A DNA stretch of 64,000 bases. Origin: Acidobacteriota bacterium. GTDB lineage: Bacteria > Acidobacteriota > Blastocatellia > UBA7656. The DNA lies in the NCBI GenBank assembly GCA_016201275.1, contig JACQDB010000065.1, forward strand, positions 1-64,000, written 5' to 3'. The notes beneath the pieces are model-generated. The model saw nothing but the letters and a program-made list of their open reading frames with translations, was not told where the DNA came from and did not search any database. Position numbers and translations under genes: made by a program. Positions 51,328 through 60,406 of this stretch are shown in pieces (position 1 is the first letter of the stretch; each line of letters starts with the position of its first letter).

Positions 51328-53646
51328 ATGAATAAAGAAATCACCAATGTGGCGGTGCAAGAGACGCAGAGCGGTTTTAAGCCGTATATTCCCGCCTCTG
51401 TGAAATTGCCCGAACTGACGCCCCTGCCGTTAATCGTTGGCACCTTGCTTGGCATGGTCTTTGGCGCGTCATCCTTGTATCTGGTTCTCAAGGTCGGCTT
51501 GACGGTCAGCGCTTCGATTCCCGTCGCCGTCATCTCTATCAGCCTCTTCAGTCTGCTGTCCAAAATGGGCGTGAAGAACGCCAACATACTGGAGAACAAC
51601 ATCGTGCAGACGGCAGGCTCGGCAGGCGAATCCATTGCCTTCGGCGTTGGCGTGACCATGCCTGCCATCATGATTTTAGGTTTCGATCTGGAAATCACTC
51701 GCGTCATGCTGGTTGCCATACTCGGCGGCTTGCTCGGCATACTAATGATGATTCCTTTGCGCCGCGCTTTAATCGTTCAACAACACGGCATCTTGAAATA
51801 CCCCGAAGGCACGGCCTGCGCCGAAGTCTTAAAAGCCGGAGCCTCGCAAGAATCCCGCGACGCCGCTTCTTTAGGCAGCAACAAAGCCACGGTCGAAGCC
51901 ACCGGAGCCAAAACCATCTTCACAGGTTTTGGCATAGGGATGCTTTACAAAGTGGCGATGGTAGGTTTCAAAGCCTGGAAAGACACGCCGCAAAAAATCT
52001 TTGGCGCGCCGTTCAAAGCCGGTTCCATCTCCGCCGAAATTTCGCCGGAACTGTTAGGCGTGGGCTACATCATCGGGCCGCGCATCGCTTCGATTATGTG
52101 CGCCGGTGGGGTGCTGGCCTATCTGGTGTTGATTCCGGCGATCAAGTTTTTCGGCGAAGGCATGACCACAGCGCTGCCGCCGGGTGATGTTCCGATCAAT
52201 CAGATGACCCCCAACGCCATACGCAGTGCCTATATCTTGTATATAGGCGCAGGCGCAGTCGCAGCCGGTGGTATCATCAGCCTCTTTCGCTCGCTGCCGA
52301 CAATCTGGAGCGGCTTGAAAGGCGGCCTCGCTGACCTGCGCGGCGGCCAGGCGGCAGGCGCTTCTACGGTTCGCACCGATCACGACCTCTCAATGAAAAT
52401 CGTCTTGGGCGGCATCATTGTGTTATTGGCGATGATTATGCTCTTCCCGCAATTGAACCTGCATATTACTCATCCGCTCACCGCCATCATCGGCGCGTTG
52501 ATGATTGTCGCTTTCGGGTTTTTGTTCGTCACCGTCTCTTCCAGACTGACGGGGGAAATCGGTTCGTCATCCAATCCGATTTCCGGTATGACGGTGGCGA
52601 CCTTGTTGTTGACTTGTCTGATTTTTCTGTTGATTGGCTGGACCGGAAATACTTATTACGTCACGGCGCTCTCCATAGGCGGCATCGTCTGCATAGCGGC
52701 TTCCAACGGCGGCACCACGTCGCAGGATTTGAAGACCGGCTTTCTCGTCGGCTCGACGCCGAGCAGTCAGCAAATCGCTATACTGGTGGGCGCGTTGGCA
52801 TCGGCCTTGATTATGGGGCCGATTCTATTAAAGCTCAATGATTCGGCCACCGTTTATGTGCCGGTTGGCAACACCTTCGCGGCGGATTTCCACGTTGACA
52901 CGAGTGGCTTGGGCGCGCCCGAAGCCCTCAAAGGCGTACAGGGCGAAGAAGACCACAACGCTTATCGCTCGTGGTTCAAACAGGACGAAGCCAGCGGCAA
53001 CGCGGTGCGCTATCTGGTCAACGAGCAAGGCGTGCCGGTGTATCAGGTTGACCCCGGCATCAATGGCACGCACACCGAAAGACCGGATGGCACGCCGGTC
53101 AAAAAATTCGATGCGCCAAAAGCCACGCTCATGTCTTACATCATCAAAGGCATCCTCGATAGAAAACTGCCTTGGGGCTTGGTCTTGTTAGGCGTGATGA
53201 TTGCGATAGTGTTAGAGATGAGCGGCATTCCCTCTTTAGCGTTTGCCGTGGGCGTGTATCTGCCGCTGTCGTCTTCGAGTCCGATTTTCATCGGCGGCAT
53301 GATTCGCTGGTTAGTGGATAAATACCTCGCGCGAAAATTCCGGGGCAAAAATTTGACGGCAGAAGAGTTGACCGCCGAGGGCGACAAGAGCGGCGGTGTG
53401 TTGATGGCTTCCGGTTACATCGCCGGTGGCGCGCTGGCCGGCATCGTCATCGCCTTTTTGGCGGGTGTGCCAAGATTTGAAAATTTCAATAATCGAATAG
53501 ATGCCTGGTCAAAAAGCAATGCGTTTTTCAATGGCGCAAACGCCGACCTGCTGTCGGTCTTGCCGTTCCTGGTCTTGATCGTTCTGCTTTATCTGGCAGG
53601 GCGCGAAATGATTCTCGCCAGCAAGAAGTCAAGCGCTATGGATTAA
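51328..53646 (+). CDS. OPT-family oligopeptide transporter
   Basis: The 772-residue product has about 16 membrane segments and OPT-family features: LTPLPLIVGTLLGMVFGASSLYLVLKVGLTVSASIP (in two parts: LTPLPLIVGTLLG, SLYLVLKVGL) at the N-terminus, ENNIVQTAGSAGESIAFGVG near residue 90, and KYPEGTACAEVLKAG near 155. A soluble loop of about 100 residues (about 505-605) separates the last third. OPT proteins import peptides or metal chelates by proton symport. It is a single-gene unit with its own promoter and a terminator hairpin behind. Confidence 0.93.
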   Translation: MNKEITNVAVQETQSGFKPYIPASVKLPELTPLPLIVGTLLGMVFGASSLYLVLKVGLTVSASIPVAVISISLFSLLSKMGVKNANILENNIVQTAGSAGESIAFGVGVTMPAIMILGFDLEITRVMLVAILGGLLGILMMIPLRRALIVQQHGILKYPEGTACAEVLKAGASQESRDAASLGSNKATVEATGAKTIFTGFGIGMLYKVAMVGFKAWKDTPQKIFGAPFKAGSISAEISPELLGVGYIIGPRIASIMCAGGVLAYLVLIPAIKFFGEGMTTALPPGDVPINQMTPNAIRSAYILYIGAGAVAAGGIISLFRSLPTIWSGLKGGLADLRGGQAAGASTVRTDHDLSMKIVLGGIIVLLAMIMLFPQLNLHITHPLTAIIGALMIVAFGFLFVTVSSRLTGEIGSSSNPISGMTVATLLLTCLIFLLIGWTGNTYYVTALSIGGIVCIAASNGGTTSQDLKTGFLVGSTPSSQQIAILVGALASALIMGPILLKLNDSATVYVPVGNTFAADFHVDTSGLGAPEALKGVQGEEDHNAYRSWFKQDEASGNAVRYLVNEQGVPVYQVDPGINGTHTERPDGTPVKKFDAPKATLMSYIIKGILDRKLPWGLVLLGVMIAIVLEMSGIPSLAFAVGVYLPLSSSSPIFIGGMIRWLVDKYLARKFRGKNLTAEELTAEGDKSGGVLMASGYIAGGALAGIVIAFLAGVPRFENFNNRIDAWSKSNAFFNGANADLLSVLPFLVLIVLLYLAGREMILASKKSSAMD

Positions 53647-53716: not shown

Positions 53717-54309
53717 ATTGTTGTTGTGGAGGCAACGATGGAACATCCAGCCAGAAACAATTTCGCATGGAACGCCTGATTGCCGACCACAGCAACGCCG
53801 GTATCACGCCGTGGGAGCAGTGTTCTGGTTATCCATTCACGCTCGAAGCTGTTGAAGCCATCAGTCAATTGACGTAAGAGCAAAGGCCTATGAAAATCAC
53901 CCTCGCGCCTTCGTCAATCAAGTTGCTCAATAAACGCCCGCCTAGACCGGATGAGCAAGCCGCTTCATCCAATCTCCGGTATGCCAACACAAAATCGTTG
54001 TAGCCATGCTTTCAATTTCAGGCTTGCGATAATCCGGCCTCTCGCTTCAATCACACAGTTGCAAAATTCCGCAATTGTTAAATTATACGCAGAGAGATTT
54101 TTCCCACGGCTCGGCGCTCGGCGCTCGTTAAGAAAGTCCGCAAAAATCTTTCGGGCTTCGTCAAGCTCTCATGACATAACGGCTTAGAAGTTTGGCTCAG
54201 GGTCGCTCAGAGCAACATCAAGCGTCCGCTTGGCAATGGTATATCGCTTGCCTTAGCTGTTTTTGCGAGCCGCAAAAAGCGCTGGCAAAATCGCCTATAG
54301 GAGGCTGTT

Positions 54310-54666
54310 ATGAACGCCGCAAAACGCTTTGTCCTCATCTGCGGGTTATGCTTGTTTCCCCTTGTCTTTCTGACTCCCGCGCAGGAAAAATCGTCAACCA
54401 CTGGCAAAGACTTATTCAAACAGAATTGTCGCGTTTGCCACAGCAAAGATTCCGCGCAGGGGGAATACAGCCCGCTGTCCTTAATTCAGGATCAGTGGAA
54501 AAAATTCTTCACGACGAAATTTGCTTCCACACACAAGGATGTGAGGTTGCCCGGTCAGGAGAAAAAACTTCTCGAAACACTGACGCCTGAACAACTCAAA
54601 ACCCTACAGAAATACTGCATAGATCACGCTGCCGATTCGGAGCAACCGCAAACCTGTAGCGGTTGA
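54310..54666 (+). CDS. Small secreted monohaem cytochrome c
   Basis: The 118-residue product has a signal peptide (about 1-25) and one haem site, CRVCH (40-44). The rest is helical with LTPEQLKTLQKYCIDHAADS near the end. ATG 54310 has TAGGAGGCTG upstream. It is the first of four tightly spaced genes (cytochrome, beta-barrel, octahaem cytochrome, ArsR regulator) and is likely a periplasmic electron carrier for that set. Confidence 0.82.
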   Translation: MNAAKRFVLICGLCLFPLVFLTPAQEKSSTTGKDLFKQNCRVCHSKDSAQGEYSPLSLIQDQWKKFFTTKFASTHKDVRLPGQEKKLLETLTPEQLKTLQKYCIDHAADSEQPQTCSG

Positions 54667-54713
54667 AGTTTCCGGCAGTCTTGCCCGTCAACCCCACAAA
54701 AGGAGGGGGGATT

Positions 54714-56507
54714 ATGCGAAACCTTATCATCATTATCGCTATCATAATTATTCTTCCCGGACCATTCGTCCGGGCGCAAAATCCGACTCCTGTGAATCCG
54801 TCGCCGACTTCCGCGCAAACCGAAAAAACTCCAACCGAGCAACTTCGTCAGGAGATTGAACTGTTGAAAAAAACCATCAATGCGCTGGAAGAACGATTGG
54901 CCAATCAGGAAAAGAAACAGACCGTTCAAGCGCCCCCGGTTGCCGACCCGAAAACCGCAGAGCAACTCAAAGACATAGATAAACGGGTCACCAAAACCGA
55001 GCGCGACACGGCTTTACAGCGCATCAAATTCGGCGGCGATTATCGCTTTGAAGCGCATTCAATTCAAGGCACCATACCGGCGCATTTCGACGGCATGAGA
55101 TTACAAAACCTATTGGTTAAAAGTATATTCGCCATGAATGTTCTGGGGCGTCCGCCCTCAAGCCTCAATGAAATCAATCAAGCGGTTGCCGGACATTACA
55201 GCGATTATCAATACTTCACCAACAATCTGACTTTCAATCAACTGAAACAGGCTATGGGGCAATTCCCTGCGCCGTTGCAACAACAACTGTTCGGCCTGTT
55301 GATGCCTGCCACTTACGTTTCCGAATACAAAGCCAACAACAAGATTTTGTACACCAATCGTTTTCGCATACGACTGGATGCGCCAGTCTCGGAAAACGTC
55401 AGCGTCACGGCACGCCTGAGTATGTACAAAGTGTTCGGCGATTCGACCGGCGTACAGGTATTCAACGGGCAGCCGACTTCTTTAAGTATAGACGGCACGA
55501 CTACAGGGGTGCCGAATTCGGACATCCTGCGAGTCGAGCGCGCTTACGTCACTTGGAATAAAATCGCCAACTCGCCCTTTTTCCTTTCCATAGGGCGACG
55601 GCCTTCAACCGATGGGCCGCCCCTGAATTTACGCAATGACGAGATGCGCGGCGGCACGCCTTCGGGGGCGCTGATTGATTACCAGTTCGACGGCATCACC
55701 TTTGGCTATCACGCCGGTGAACACACCGTGCTGCGCCTGTGCTATGGCCTGGGTTATGAATCCGGTTTCGGTAACGGTGACGTGTTGAAACTGCCGCAAG
55801 ACCGCATGAAGGATGTGCATTTTTTAGGCGGCAACGTAGATGTATGGAGTTCGGAAAAGACCTTGATACAAGCGACCCTGGCGCGCGCCTTTAATGTCAC
55901 CGATGCCTTCAATGGCTTAATCGTGCTGCCGAATAATCCCTTAACCGGAGAGACGGTTGGCGCGCCTGTCATTATGCGCTACACGCCATCGGCTAATCTT
56001 GGCGACATCAATTTGGTGGGCATCAATGTGACGCATAAATTCGGCGCGCTTGATACCTTCTTCAGCGCCAACTATGTCGGCCTCAGACCGAACCGCCTAA
56101 CCACGCCATTTGGCGGTTTAGGGTCTGATCCCTTCGAGGTGCCGAGCAATCACAACGGCGGCATGATTTATGCAGGAGCGCGCTATAACTTCGGCAGCGA
56201 AGAGCGCACGAAAATTGGTTTCGAGTTCAATAAGGGCTCGAAATACTGGTTCAATTTCGCTCAGGCCGAAGATGATATTATCGCGCCCAAGACCAACACG
56301 CGGGGCGAGGTGTATCAAACCTACATCACGCATCGCATCACCAGTCGCTTTATTTTCAAAGCCGACTTCATACGCTACAACTACAGATACTCCGGCTCCG
56401 GCTGGCATCTGGGAGCGCCCAAGAGTCTGGAGCAAGCGCCCATTCTCGGCTTTCCAACCTACAGTCGGGTGAACAAGTTTTCCGCAGGGTTGACGGCGCG
56501 TTTTTAA
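54714..56507 (+). CDS. Outer-membrane beta-barrel (porin-like) protein
   Basis: ATG 54714 has AGGAGG at ideal spacing; the longer frame from 54663 is rejected. The 597-residue product has a signal peptide (about 1-22), a periplasmic coiled coil (TEQLRQEIELLKKTINALEE, about 41-60, to about 105), and then a beta-barrel with many aromatic strand ends, finishing ...KFSAGLTARF with a C-terminal Phe. Strand-like segments include NRFRIRLDAPVSENVSVTAR and YAGARYNFGSEERTKIGFEF. It recalls the porins (DUF3373-type) of Geobacter-type electron conduits. It sits between two cytochrome genes with 47- and 17-base gaps. Confidence 0.8.
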   Translation: MRNLIIIIAIIIILPGPFVRAQNPTPVNPSPTSAQTEKTPTEQLRQEIELLKKTINALEERLANQEKKQTVQAPPVADPKTAEQLKDIDKRVTKTERDTALQRIKFGGDYRFEAHSIQGTIPAHFDGMRLQNLLVKSIFAMNVLGRPPSSLNEINQAVAGHYSDYQYFTNNLTFNQLKQAMGQFPAPLQQQLFGLLMPATYVSEYKANNKILYTNRFRIRLDAPVSENVSVTARLSMYKVFGDSTGVQVFNGQPTSLSIDGTTTGVPNSDILRVERAYVTWNKIANSPFFLSIGRRPSTDGPPLNLRNDEMRGGTPSGALIDYQFDGITFGYHAGEHTVLRLCYGLGYESGFGNGDVLKLPQDRMKDVHFLGGNVDVWSSEKTLIQATLARAFNVTDAFNGLIVLPNNPLTGETVGAPVIMRYTPSANLGDINLVGINVTHKFGALDTFFSANYVGLRPNRLTTPFGGLGSDPFEVPSNHNGGMIYAGARYNFGSEERTKIGFEFNKGSKYWFNFAQAEDDIIAPKTNTRGEVYQTYITHRITSRFIFKADFIRYNYRYSGSGWHLGAPKSLEQAPILGFPTYSRVNKFSAGLTARF

Positions 56508-56524
56508 TCGGAGGAGGTGACGGA

Positions 56525-57943
56525 ATGAAATACCTGACAACCTTTGCTTTCTTGTTTTTGACTCTGGTCTTGGGCATGGCTCAAGACCAGGAGAAAAAGT
56601 ATTCGCACGCGGATTACTTCGCGCATTACGAAGGCACCGCTACTTGTCTGCAATGTCACCAGAAAGATGGCGAAAATTTCTTTCACTCGCAGCATTATCA
56701 GTGGCAGGGCGCAGCCCCTCAAATTATCAATGCCAAAAATCGTCGACTCGGGAAACTGAACACGATTAATGATTTCTGCACCAGCCCCAGAGGCAACTGG
56801 ATCGGACTGGTGAAGAATTCACGCGGCGACACCATCAGCAGAGGCTGTAGCGCCTGTCACGCGGGGCTGGGAAAATTGCCGACGGAAAAAATCAGCGATG
56901 AGCAGTTGCAGAATATTGATTGTCTAATCTGCCACGCCAACGGCTATCGGCGCGACCTGTTTGCCACGCCGGAAGGCGGCTTGGCGTGGCAGCCGATCTT
57001 GTGGAAGAACCGCGAAGGGCTGGATGCGGTTGCCAAACGCATCACGCTGCCGACCCGTGCGACCTGTCTGCGTTGCCATAACGCTTCGGGCGGCGGCGTC
57101 AATTTCAAGCGCGGCGATTTGGAGTATAAGCTGGTGGATTGTGGCCGTGATTTCGATGTCCACATGGCAAGCGAGGGCAAAAATATGCAGTGCATCAGTT
57201 GTCACGCTGGCGATGGGCATCGGGTGCGCGGACGCGGCACTGATCTGTCGGGAAGCGATATGCCGAGTCAACCGCTGCGTTGCGATTCGTCCGGCTGTCA
57301 CAGTGCCACGCCGCACCAAAGCGTCGCTCTCAATCATCACACCAAGCGCGTCAATTGTACGGTTTGTCATATCCCCAGTTTTGCCAGAGCCGAAGCCACG
57401 GACATGGCGCGGGACTGGTCGCAGCCGGTTTATCACGCAGACACGGACCGCTACACCGCCAAGATCACTTTGCAGACCAACGTGCAGCCGGTGTATGCGT
57501 GGTTCAACGGCTTCACCAAAGCGCAGTTACCCGGTGAACCGGTGGCGCGGCTGGCCAATGGTTCCGTAGGCATCATGGTTCCGCAAGGCTCCCGCTTAGA
57601 CCGCAAAGCGCAAATCTTCGCCTTCAAACTTCATCAAGGGCGTATGCCGATGCTGGCAGAAAAAAACTGGCTCATACCGATTATGGTCGAGCAATTCTTT
57701 CCGAATGGCAAGATCGAGCCAGCCATCAAAGAAGCCGCCAAAGAGATGTACAAGATTGATGATGCACAATTTTCCTGGGTGAATACGTCGCGCTACATGG
57801 GAATTTTTCATGGCGTACCACCTGCCGCCAAAGCGCTCAACTGTCTGGATTGCCACAGCCCCAACGGGCGTATGGACTGGAAGGCGTTAGGCTATCCAGG
57901 AGACCCGCTGAATGTCTTGCTCAAATCGCGCGCCAAAAAGTAG
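56525..57943 (+). CDS. Octahaem cytochrome c
   Basis: The 472-residue secreted protein has CxxCH haem sites at 41-45, 108-112, 133-137, 181-185, 223-227, 278-282 and 440-444. One wider site of the form Cx4CH (CDSSGCH, 253-259) makes eight possible haems. The widened spacing recalls modified haem sites of multihaem reductases, but no catalytic Lys motif (CxxCK) is present. GGAGGTGACGGA precedes ATG 56525. Its position after the porin gene suggests it is the periplasmic or surface cytochrome of a transmembrane conduit. The ArsR gene starts two bases after its stop. Confidence 0.85.
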   Translation: MKYLTTFAFLFLTLVLGMAQDQEKKYSHADYFAHYEGTATCLQCHQKDGENFFHSQHYQWQGAAPQIINAKNRRLGKLNTINDFCTSPRGNWIGLVKNSRGDTISRGCSACHAGLGKLPTEKISDEQLQNIDCLICHANGYRRDLFATPEGGLAWQPILWKNREGLDAVAKRITLPTRATCLRCHNASGGGVNFKRGDLEYKLVDCGRDFDVHMASEGKNMQCISCHAGDGHRVRGRGTDLSGSDMPSQPLRCDSSGCHSATPHQSVALNHHTKRVNCTVCHIPSFARAEATDMARDWSQPVYHADTDRYTAKITLQTNVQPVYAWFNGFTKAQLPGEPVARLANGSVGIMVPQGSRLDRKAQIFAFKLHQGRMPMLAEKNWLIPIMVEQFFPNGKIEPAIKEAAKEMYKIDDAQFSWVNTSRYMGIFHGVPPAAKALNCLDCHSPNGRMDWKALGYPGDPLNVLLKSRAKK

Positions 57944-57944
57944 A

Positions 57945-58352
57945 ATGAGCCTTGAGCAAACCGCAGAGACGAGCGTTGCCGCGCTCGCCTCTGCGGCCAC
58001 CTTCAACCTTTACATGAAAAGCGCCAACCAAAAAAAAGCGACCGACCTCTTGCTTTACGAAATGCAGGCCAATATCTGTAAAGCCTTCGCTCATCCGAAA
58101 CGCTTACAGATTCTCGACCTACTGGGCGATGGCGAGATGGGAGTTTCCGAATTGCAGGAAAAACTGGAGGTATCGAAAACCAACGTGTCACAACATCTGA
58201 CGATTTTAAAATCCGCAGGGGTGTTGAAGACGCGCCGTTCCGGCAAACAGACCTATTGTTCCCTGACCATACCAGAGGTCAAACAGGCGTGCCAACTCAT
58301 CAGCAAAGTGTTACGCGCCCAGATTGCTCACACCAGATCGCTCACCGATTAA
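57945..58352 (+). CDS. ArsR-family transcriptional regulator
   Basis: The 135-residue product (ATG 57945; an internal ATG at 58014 would give a more usual length) has the ArsR winged helix: ICKAFAHPKRLQILDLLGDG, VSELQEKLEVSKTNVSQHLT and LKSAGVLKTRRSGKQTYCSL. The recognition helix carries SKTNVSQH; the classical metal motif ELCVCD is replaced by GVSELQE, so the signal may not be a metal. It is translationally close to the octahaem cytochrome gene and may control the cluster. Confidence 0.88.
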   Translation: MSLEQTAETSVAALASAATFNLYMKSANQKKATDLLLYEMQANICKAFAHPKRLQILDLLGDGEMGVSELQEKLEVSKTNVSQHLTILKSAGVLKTRRSGKQTYCSLTIPEVKQACQLISKVLRAQIAHTRSLTD

Positions 58353-58379
58353 CCCGCTGGCTTCTCAAGTCAAGCCGCA

Positions 58380-58456
58380 ACCATTTTGCAACCCCCGTAA
58401 CGGGAGGGAAGAAATTTCCTCTTCGCCTCGTCTAATCGCTGACGGTGCAAAATGGT
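58380..58456. promoter_or_regulatory. Inverted repeat after the ArsR gene
   Basis: AACCATTTTGCA (58380-58391) and TGCAAAATGGTT (58445-58456) are perfect 12-base complements 53 bases apart, with CCCCGTAACGGGAGG inside. It may be a terminator stem or a pair of half-sites upstream of the next gene. Confidence 0.45.
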
Positions 58457-58514
58457 TCGTCAACCGTCCAACCAGGCGCGCCGTCCATTATCAAGTTTCA
58501 GGAGCAAAGAATCT

Positions 58515-59072
58515 ATGCAACGCCGCACTAAATGGTTTTTTCTGTCTGTCTTTCTGCCGCTGTGTTTTGTTTCAAGCGGCTTTCATCAACCCAGCGCAGG
58601 CACTCCTCGTTCGTCCGGTTTATGTGAACAACTGAAGCCCTGCCAATTGCTCACTCAAGCCGACGCCGAAAAAATTCTTGGGCAAGCGGCACGGCTTACG
58701 CAGGACGCCTCTGAAATGAAAGGCGAGGTCCGCCAGTGCCGTTGTAGGTACACAGCGGTTGCCTTAGATCAAGCCAGCGGAGAAGCGATTAATTTGTACT
58801 TCTCGTTTGAGCAAAGTGAGCGCCATCCGTCGGCGCAACAGGCGCACGAAGTGATGGCCTCAACCAAGAGTGCGAATATCCACGACACCTCCATAATAGA
58901 TTTATCAGGGATAGGCGACGAGGCGTATCAGTTAGGCGATGGGCCAAATGTTCATTTCATCATGGCTAGAAAAAGCGCGAGGGTCATACGGCTGCAAATC
59001 AAACAAGCCACCGCGAAAACTTCGTTAGCAGAACTCAAGACCTTGGCGCGAGAAATCGCCAAGCGCCTCTGA
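58515..59072 (+). CDS. Secreted protein of unknown function
   Basis: ATG 58515 follows CAGGAGC. The 185-residue product has a signal peptide (about 8-30), then CEQLKPCQLLTQADAEKILG, a pattern (Leu-Thr-x-x-Asp-Ala-x-x-x-Leu-Gly) seen in many small secreted proteins of Acidobacteriota and Actinobacteria. A later EVRQCRCRYTAVA adds cysteines that may form disulfides. The C-terminal half has a GIGDEAYQLGDGPNVHFIMARKSA segment (split: GIGDEAYQLGDG). No enzyme is inferred. Confidence 0.68.
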   Translation: MQRRTKWFFLSVFLPLCFVSSGFHQPSAGTPRSSGLCEQLKPCQLLTQADAEKILGQAARLTQDASEMKGEVRQCRCRYTAVALDQASGEAINLYFSFEQSERHPSAQQAHEVMASTKSANIHDTSIIDLSGIGDEAYQLGDGPNVHFIMARKSARVIRLQIKQATAKTSLAELKTLAREIAKRL

Positions 59073-59365
59073 AGGCTGCCGTCTGGCGCTAGCGTTCTCT
59101 GATTCCGCTAAGGCACCGACTTCTCAAGGCTCTAGTGAAGTCGGCCTGATTGATGCCCGCGCATCCAGAAAACCAGCTACCTTCACCACTAAGAACACCA
59201 AAAACACGAAGCCAGAGAATTTATCTCCTGCGGGTTCTTCATGAACTTGGTGGTGGGGAAACTGATTCTATCGTCAAGCCTAAGAAACTTCTCCTTTACT
59301 CATCGCCGCCACGGTTTGCGCTTCTGTTGGCAATTCGCCCTGCCGTTGGGTATCATCCTCGCGCT

Positions 59366-60406
59366 ATGATTAAAACTATTGAATGGACTGATGAAGGCGT
59401 GGTGATGATTGACCAGCGCCGCTTACCAAGCGAAGAACTCTATCCGGTCTTCACAACTTATGACGAAGTTGCAGTCGCCATCGAAGAGATGGTCATACGC
59501 GGCGCACCGGCTATCGGGGTGGCGGCGGCTATGGGCATAGCGCTGGGCGCAAAACAATCTGCGGCCTCGACGCCAGACGAACTCGAAAGCGATTTCAATC
59601 AAGCCTGCGACCGCATCGCCAAGACGCGCCCCACGGCGGTCAATCTGTTCTGGGCGGTCAAACGCATGGGCGAAGTTTTCCGCGCCGTCAAACAGAGCGG
59701 CGCTTCCATAGAGGCTATACAAAATCGGCTCATCAAAGAGGCTCTCAATATTCACGAAGAGGATATCGAAAGCAACAAACGCATGGGGCGATACGGGGCG
59801 CAGCTTTTGCCGCAGGATGTTACCATCTTGACGCATTGCAATGCCGGAGCGCTGGCCACCGCCGGTTACGGCACGGCGCTGGGCGTGGTGCGCGCTGCTG
59901 TCGAAGCCGGAAAAACGGTCAACGTCATCGCCGACGAAACGCGCCCCTTTTTGCAGGGCGCAAGATTGACAGCCTGGGAACTGGCCAAAGATGACATTCC
60001 CGTGACTTTAATCACCGACAATATGGCAGGGCATTTCATGAAGTCCGGGCAAATCAATTGCGTCGTTGTCGGCGCTGACCGCATCGCTGCCAACGGCGAT
60101 GTCGCCAATAAAATCGGTACCTACATGGTGGCGCTGGCAGCGCACGCTAACAACATTCCGTTTTATGTTGCCGCGCCGCTTTCAACTATTGACCTCGAAT
60201 TGAAATCCGGCGACGAAATTCCTATCGAAAACCGCGTCATCACCGAAGTGACGCACATACGCGGTCAGCAAATTTCGCCTGACGGCATACAGGTGGCCAA
60301 CCCGGCTTTCGATGTCACGCCACATCGCTACATCGCCGCCATCATCACCGATGCCGGTGTCGCGCGTGCGCCATACGAAGAGAGTCTGAAAGCCTTGTTC
60401 AAATGA
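59366..60406 (+). CDS. mtnA: S-methyl-5-thioribose-1-phosphate isomerase
   Basis: MtnA isomerises methylthioribose-1-phosphate to methylthioribulose-1-phosphate in the methionine salvage pathway. ATG 59366 ([20 protein letters not shown]) gives 346 residues, the family norm; the long upstream extension is rejected. Motifs: [36 protein letters not shown] with the catalytic Cys, [17 protein letters not shown], and [20 protein letters not shown] with the catalytic Asp. It appears to be a single-gene unit. Confidence 0.96.

Follow-up and report, generated by a model that had tools for sequence, protein, structure and literature searches.

The four genes at positions 54310–58352 of the window, that is, of the whole 64,000-nucleotide stretch of the Acidobacteriota contig JACQDB010000065.1 that was analysed, probably encode a module under ArsR control through which sulfur compounds reach a periplasmic reductase that can be exchanged. 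The operon would serve either the respiration or the detoxification of oxidised sulfur compounds. This interpretation is favoured by the finding that the enzymes which take the place of the window's reductase in related clusters are sulfur-type reductases as well. The absence of a quinol-oxidising subunit from the cluster in the window counts against it.

Organization of the gene cluster

The cluster comprises the following features, all of which lie on the + strand.

54057..54076, + strand: putative ArsR operator, the 20-bp palindrome AGTTGCAAAATTCCGCAATT (consensus AGTTGCGAAATTTCGCAACT), 233 bp before the first gene
54310..54666, + strand: monohaem c-type cytochrome, class I-like, periplasmic, 118 aa, one CxxCH
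54655..54657, + strand: codon of Cys116, the C-terminal cysteine of the monohaem cytochrome, invariant in 46/46 homologues
54714..56507, + strand: DUF3373 (PF11853) outer-membrane porin, Omp50 homologue, 597 aa, with an N-terminal coiled coil
55740..55742, + strand: codon of Cys343, the porin's one cysteine, present without exception in 46/46 porins; it is predicted to point into the lumen
56525..57943, + strand: octahaem c-type cytochrome, divergent OTR-family reductase, 472 aa
57107..57109, + strand: codon of Lys195 of the octahaem cytochrome, equivalent of 1SP3 Lys153
57281..57301, + strand: widened haem-attachment site CDSSGCH (Cx4CH) for the sixth haem of the octahaem cytochrome
57945..58352, + strand: ArsR/SmtB-family regulator, 135 aa; the start may be at 58014

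The four genes named in the initial annotation, a monohaem cytochrome, a coiled-coil porin, an octahaem cytochrome with one Cx4CH site and an ArsR regulator lacking the metal motif, are all present. Its locus span of 54310–58456 is correct at the start, and its end lies about 100 bp beyond the ArsR stop codon. Successive genes are separated by 47, 17 and 1 bp, and if arsR starts at the later codon the last distance becomes 70 bp; the homologues of this regulator begin at the position equivalent to ATG 58014. Strong ribosome-binding sites precede the genes of the monohaem cytochrome, the porin and the octahaem cytochrome. The TTG start at 54663 listed for the porin is not needed, since a strong GGAGG site precedes ATG 54714.

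Upstream of the operon lies a gene for an OPT-type oligopeptide transporter (51328–53646), and an OPT homologue is likewise found upstream in the related genome G001 (locus L037). Directly past the arsR gene, positions 58452–59072 encode a secreted-looking protein of 206 aa that belongs to no known family, which is followed by an MtnA/eIF-2B-like gene (59150–60406). In the literature searched, DUF3373 is seldom mentioned, and a description of this four-gene cluster was not found. A tblastn search of plasmids with three porins as queries gave no match.

Porin and monohaem cytochrome

The product of the second gene matches PF11853/DUF3373 with 331 bits (Pfam cut-off 26.1) and ends in a C-terminal Phe. 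A profile built from 14 of its relatives matched Omp50 of Campylobacter jejuni, the structure of which has been solved (PDB 10aw), at E 1e-21. According to a review of outer-membrane proteins, the Omp50 family consists of general porins, and the Omp50 and DUF3373 families are both 18-stranded. The AlphaFold model of the porin has approximately 16–18 strands besides a coiled coil and a helical insert; its confidence is low (mean pLDDT 63), so that the size of the pore is uncertain. In the Foldseek search with this model, the coiled-coil attachment porin OmpM1 was the best match, followed by general porins and AlgE. The nearest folds among the matches listed are barrels of 16–18 strands, and MtrB does not occur among the best 50 listed.

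The mature porin of the window contains one cysteine, Cys343, at a position kept in all 46 porins compared. Because the alternate residues on its strand are hydrophobic, Cys343 should point into the lumen; it is located about five residues from a predicted periplasmic turn.

The monohaem cytochrome carries a Sec-like leader without a lipobox and ends in ...DSEQPQTCSG. In all 46 homologues the C-terminus has the form DSxxPx[TI]C followed by at most three residues. A Foldseek search with its model returned weak cytochrome c6-like matches only. The C-terminal Cys was considered as the sixth haem ligand and is possible in this role; the His at residue 75 is the better candidate, and in one clade it is apparently swapped for Cys.

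Octahaem cytochrome

The product of the third gene contains seven CxxCH motifs and, as the sixth motif, CDSSGCH at residue 253. It exceeds the Pfam cut-off for PF11783 (84.3 bits against 22.1), scores 302.8 bits (E 4.5e-90) against TIGR04315, under the NCBIfam cut-off of 375 bits, and matches 1SP3 at E 4e-53. The eight CH histidines all align with those of 1SP3 in the order found in OTR. Lys195 corresponds to Lys153 of 1SP3, which we take to be the ligand of catalytic haem 2; this lysine is said to have been described as the haem-2 ligand of OTR by Mowat in 2004. A highly conserved lysine in OTR, in agreement with Lys153 as the ligand, is also noted in PMC11024163. A YxK lysine after haem 3 had been considered for the haem-2 ligand and was dropped, the chain numbering of 1SP3 leading to the Lys of the KHGD motif.

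The alignment of the octahaem cytochromes included 46 sequences, from which 23 members of the window's clade and 20 canonical OTRs were compared. All eight haem sites and the haem-2 lysine are kept in these 43 sequences. The residue after the lysine is Arg in the window's protein; it is His in none of the 23 clade members and in all 20 canonical OTRs, which implies a different active site. The Cx4CH site arises from two residues inserted at haem 6; many members of the clade share this insertion, but some relatives have CxxCH at this position. As judged from its sequence, the octahaem cytochrome is a divergent sister clade of OTR and not TIGR04315 proper. Given the Arg at the position of His154 of OTR and the score below the NCBIfam cut-off, its substrate may differ from that of OTR.

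OTR itself has been called an enzyme of cryptic function, and the Shewanella enzyme also reduces nitrite and hydroxylamine (PMC11024163); for this reason the octahaem cytochrome may have a substrate other than tetrathionate. In a marine acidobacterium, otr expression rose 36-fold with tetrathionate (PMC8528874).

Conservation of the cluster and exchange of the reductase

The survey covered Acidobacteriota, and the loci compared are not independent of each other. A search with the porin led to 14 Acidobacteriota loci, and in a family search DUF3373 was over the cut-off in 54 of 297 Acidobacteriota genomes. The neighbourhood comparison was based on 47 distinct porin loci, 46 of which could be tested for an adjacent monohaem cytochrome owing to the extent of their contigs. 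A reductase gene adjoins the porin in all 47 loci, two of these showing only partial weak matches, and the monohaem cytochrome adjoins it in 45 of the 46 testable loci. The order and content of the cluster recur in dozens of Acidobacteriota genomes and are not a matter of chance; a conserved gene order had been named as support in the initial annotation.

The third component is of three kinds: the OTR-type octahaem cytochrome, an octahaem cytochrome of approximately 690 aa, and a molybdenum reductase of the Psr/Phs type. The molybdenum enzyme is accompanied by FeS and NrfD subunits and carries a TAT signal in the member scanned. Its best NCBIfam match is the thiosulfate reductase PhsA, below the cut-off of that model, and in the PDB it best matches 2vpw, an entry deposited under the name thiosulfate reductase. 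For the cytochrome b subunits, the matching model is that of the thiosulfate reductase cytochrome b (PhsC-like), likewise with scores below its cut-off. At least nine changes between the haem and the molybdenum state are needed on the porin tree. Since the reductase is swapped while the porin and the monohaem cytochrome stay, these two proteins form the constant unit of the cluster, with the octahaem cytochrome as a replaceable client.

The octahaem cytochrome of about 690 aa, with seven CxxCH motifs and one wider site, was observed in locus L009 (9879–12251) and locus L014 (9732–11807), together with a PhsC-like cytochrome b and the same porin, cytochrome and ArsR. It gave no PDB match and is possibly an undescribed reductase. 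In locus L038 of genome G235, a cysteine-bearing porin is flanked both by a set of molybdenum, FeS and NrfD genes and by an OTR-like octahaem cytochrome. The porin of this locus forms a long branch; no monohaem cytochrome of this kind was found in the genome, which is 97% complete, though the porin Cys is kept.

ArsR regulator and its putative operator

The product of the fourth gene is a winged-helix protein that matches HTH_metalloreg (NF033788) with 88.6 bits against a cut-off of 55. The metal motif ELCVCDL is absent from it. With numbering from 57945, Cys45 and Cys116 are kept in ten of ten homologues and Cys105 in nine. Against NF040642, the model of the sulfur-sensing regulators BigR and SqrR, the protein scores 65 bits, below the cut-off of 155, and its conserved cysteines appear to sit elsewhere than at what we take to be the Cys positions of BigR.

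All ten loci in which a related arsR gene neighbours the cluster carry the 20-bp palindrome ahead of the first gene. The palindrome also precedes two related clusters for which an ArsR was not observed, one of these loci being truncated, which makes 12 clusters altogether; at up to four mismatches it is absent from the remaining loci compared. In 625 kb, 12 sites were observed versus 0.4 in shuffled sequence, and within the 6.84 Mb genome of the window no other site matches as well as the one at 54057–54076. Because the palindrome tracks the operons with such a regulator and the operon's own site is the best in the genome, ArsR looks dedicated to the operon, in agreement with the initial annotation. 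It would presumably bind the palindrome and respond to a signal.

Proposed function and alternative explanations

We propose that the DUF3373 barrel acts as a dedicated outer-membrane pore through which a small sulfur compound, of the tetrathionate, thiosulfate or polysulfide class, would reach the periplasm, to be reduced by the OTR-type octahaem enzyme at its Lys-ligated haem. The monohaem cytochrome would be a partner of porin and reductase alike, serving as an electron carrier or as a handler of sulfane sulfur, the latter through its C-terminal Cys together with the lumenal Cys of the porin. The ArsR protein with its conserved cysteines would repress the operon through the palindrome at 54057–54076. 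The substrate, the direction of electron flow, the role of the cysteines and the binding and signal of ArsR are inferred.

The invariant Cys in the porin and in the cytochrome are directly observed, and several roles can be considered for them. It is tentatively suggested, with a good deal of doubt, that the two residues cooperate, either in passing sulfane sulfur from the pore to the periplasmic reductase, with a SoxY-like arm on the cytochrome, or as a tether holding the cytochrome in the pore, in which case the pair would correspond to a Cyc2 split over two genes. Behind this fixed front end, reductases with unrelated folds would be exchanged. A sulfur relay fits the chemistry of all three reductase types, and a disulfide tether would lead to the two-gene Cyc2 analogue.

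It is unlikely that the tether serves extracellular electron transfer, in which a Cys–Cys disulfide would fix the monohaem cytochrome to the porin's mouth or inside it and electrons would pass across the outer membrane, linking the periplasmic reductase with a partner outside the cell. The two proteins do travel together whichever reductase is present, each has its invariant Cys, that of the porin facing the lumen near the periplasmic end, and Omp50 has Ala in the corresponding column. However, genome G235 keeps the porin Cys without such a cytochrome, one haem makes no chain across the membrane, the cluster contains no surface cytochrome, and the Pfam and NCBIfam searches gave no match to a Cyc2 model.

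About equally improbable is a nitrogen-oxide module, in which the octahaem cytochrome would reduce nitrite or hydroxylamine and the porin would be a general pore. The activities of the Shewanella OTR on both compounds speak for it, but the proteins that take its place elsewhere are enzymes of the Psr/Phs kind and PhsC-like cytochromes b and not Nrf or Nap sets, and the invariant thiols would fit sulfur chemistry better.

The conduit put forward in the initial annotation, with the octahaem cytochrome inside the barrel wiring the periplasm to the cell surface as in MtrAB or OmaB-OmbB, is very improbable: the porin and the multihaem cytochrome are adjacent and co-conserved, but the porin belongs to the DUF3373/Omp50 type rather than to the MtrB/PioB family, its barrel has, in a model of low confidence, fewer strands than the approximately 26–28 of MtrB, the octahaem cytochrome keeps the catalytic haem and lysine of OTR, neither cytochrome has a lipobox, and OTR relatives occur without the porin in Paracoccus and Photobacterium. 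The main argument against a conduit built round the octahaem cytochrome is its replaceability, the porin being retained where a molybdenum reductase stands in its place. A solute porin and a soluble reductase found without it, the outcome named beforehand as speaking against the conduit, is largely what the sequences point to. A surface lipoprotein multihaem cytochrome, which is not present in all conduits, was also looked for in the cluster; the leaders are Sec-like, and no lipobox Cys and no further multihaem gene were found. The same genome contains a better candidate: at 115–3722 of contig C130 (G000, locus L090), at the contig end, a barrel of the MtrB_PioB family (E 7.5e-94) lies beside a cytochrome with ten CxxCH motifs, a pair that is likely of the MtrAB type. 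A porin beside a multihaem gene is by itself no evidence of an electron conduit.

The sulfur module would also bear on a more general question. Porins have been proposed, without proof, for the passage of sulfur substrates across the outer membrane to periplasmic reductases (PMC10045233, PMC6896113). A porin that occurs together with one cytochrome and with a reductase of the sulfur type, the porin and the cytochrome each bearing an invariant thiol, is a concrete and mutable candidate for this entry route. The findings thereby suggest a function for DUF3373.

Comparison with known systems

MtrCAB/PioAB and OmbB-OmaB-OmcB resemble the cluster in having an outer-membrane barrel beside a multihaem cytochrome. 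The cluster of the window differs from them in the families of its barrel and cytochromes, in the smaller predicted barrel, in having no surface lipoprotein cytochrome and in an octahaem cytochrome that can be replaced by a molybdenum enzyme. Cyc2, in which a monohaem cytochrome and a porin are fused and for which the oxidation of extracellular iron has been proposed (PMC10734462), shares with the window a monohaem cytochrome dedicated to one porin. It is a single polypeptide, whereas the window has two separate genes with reductase neighbours and an invariant Cys in each partner. The Psr/Phs molybdenum reductases, such as that of Thermus (2vpw), take the octahaem cytochrome's place beside this type of porin and monohaem cytochrome in other members of the Acidobacteriota; their catalytic protein is unrelated to the octahaem cytochrome and absent from the window.

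The OTR of Shewanella oneidensis, SO_4144 (1SP3, TIGR04315), has its eight haems in the same order, the haem-2 Lys site, the distal histidines and a cleavable signal peptide in common with the window's enzyme. Shewanella also has a monohaem cytochrome, SO_4142, two locus numbers away; no mention of SO_4143 was found in the literature searched. The window's octahaem cytochrome differs in that the segment preceding haem 2 is longer, haem 6 is attached at a Cx4CH site, KRGD replaces KHGD and the score falls below the family cut-off. Omp50, finally, is homologous to the porin over most of the barrel and has a coiled coil before it, and it differs by the Ala at the column of the invariant Cys.
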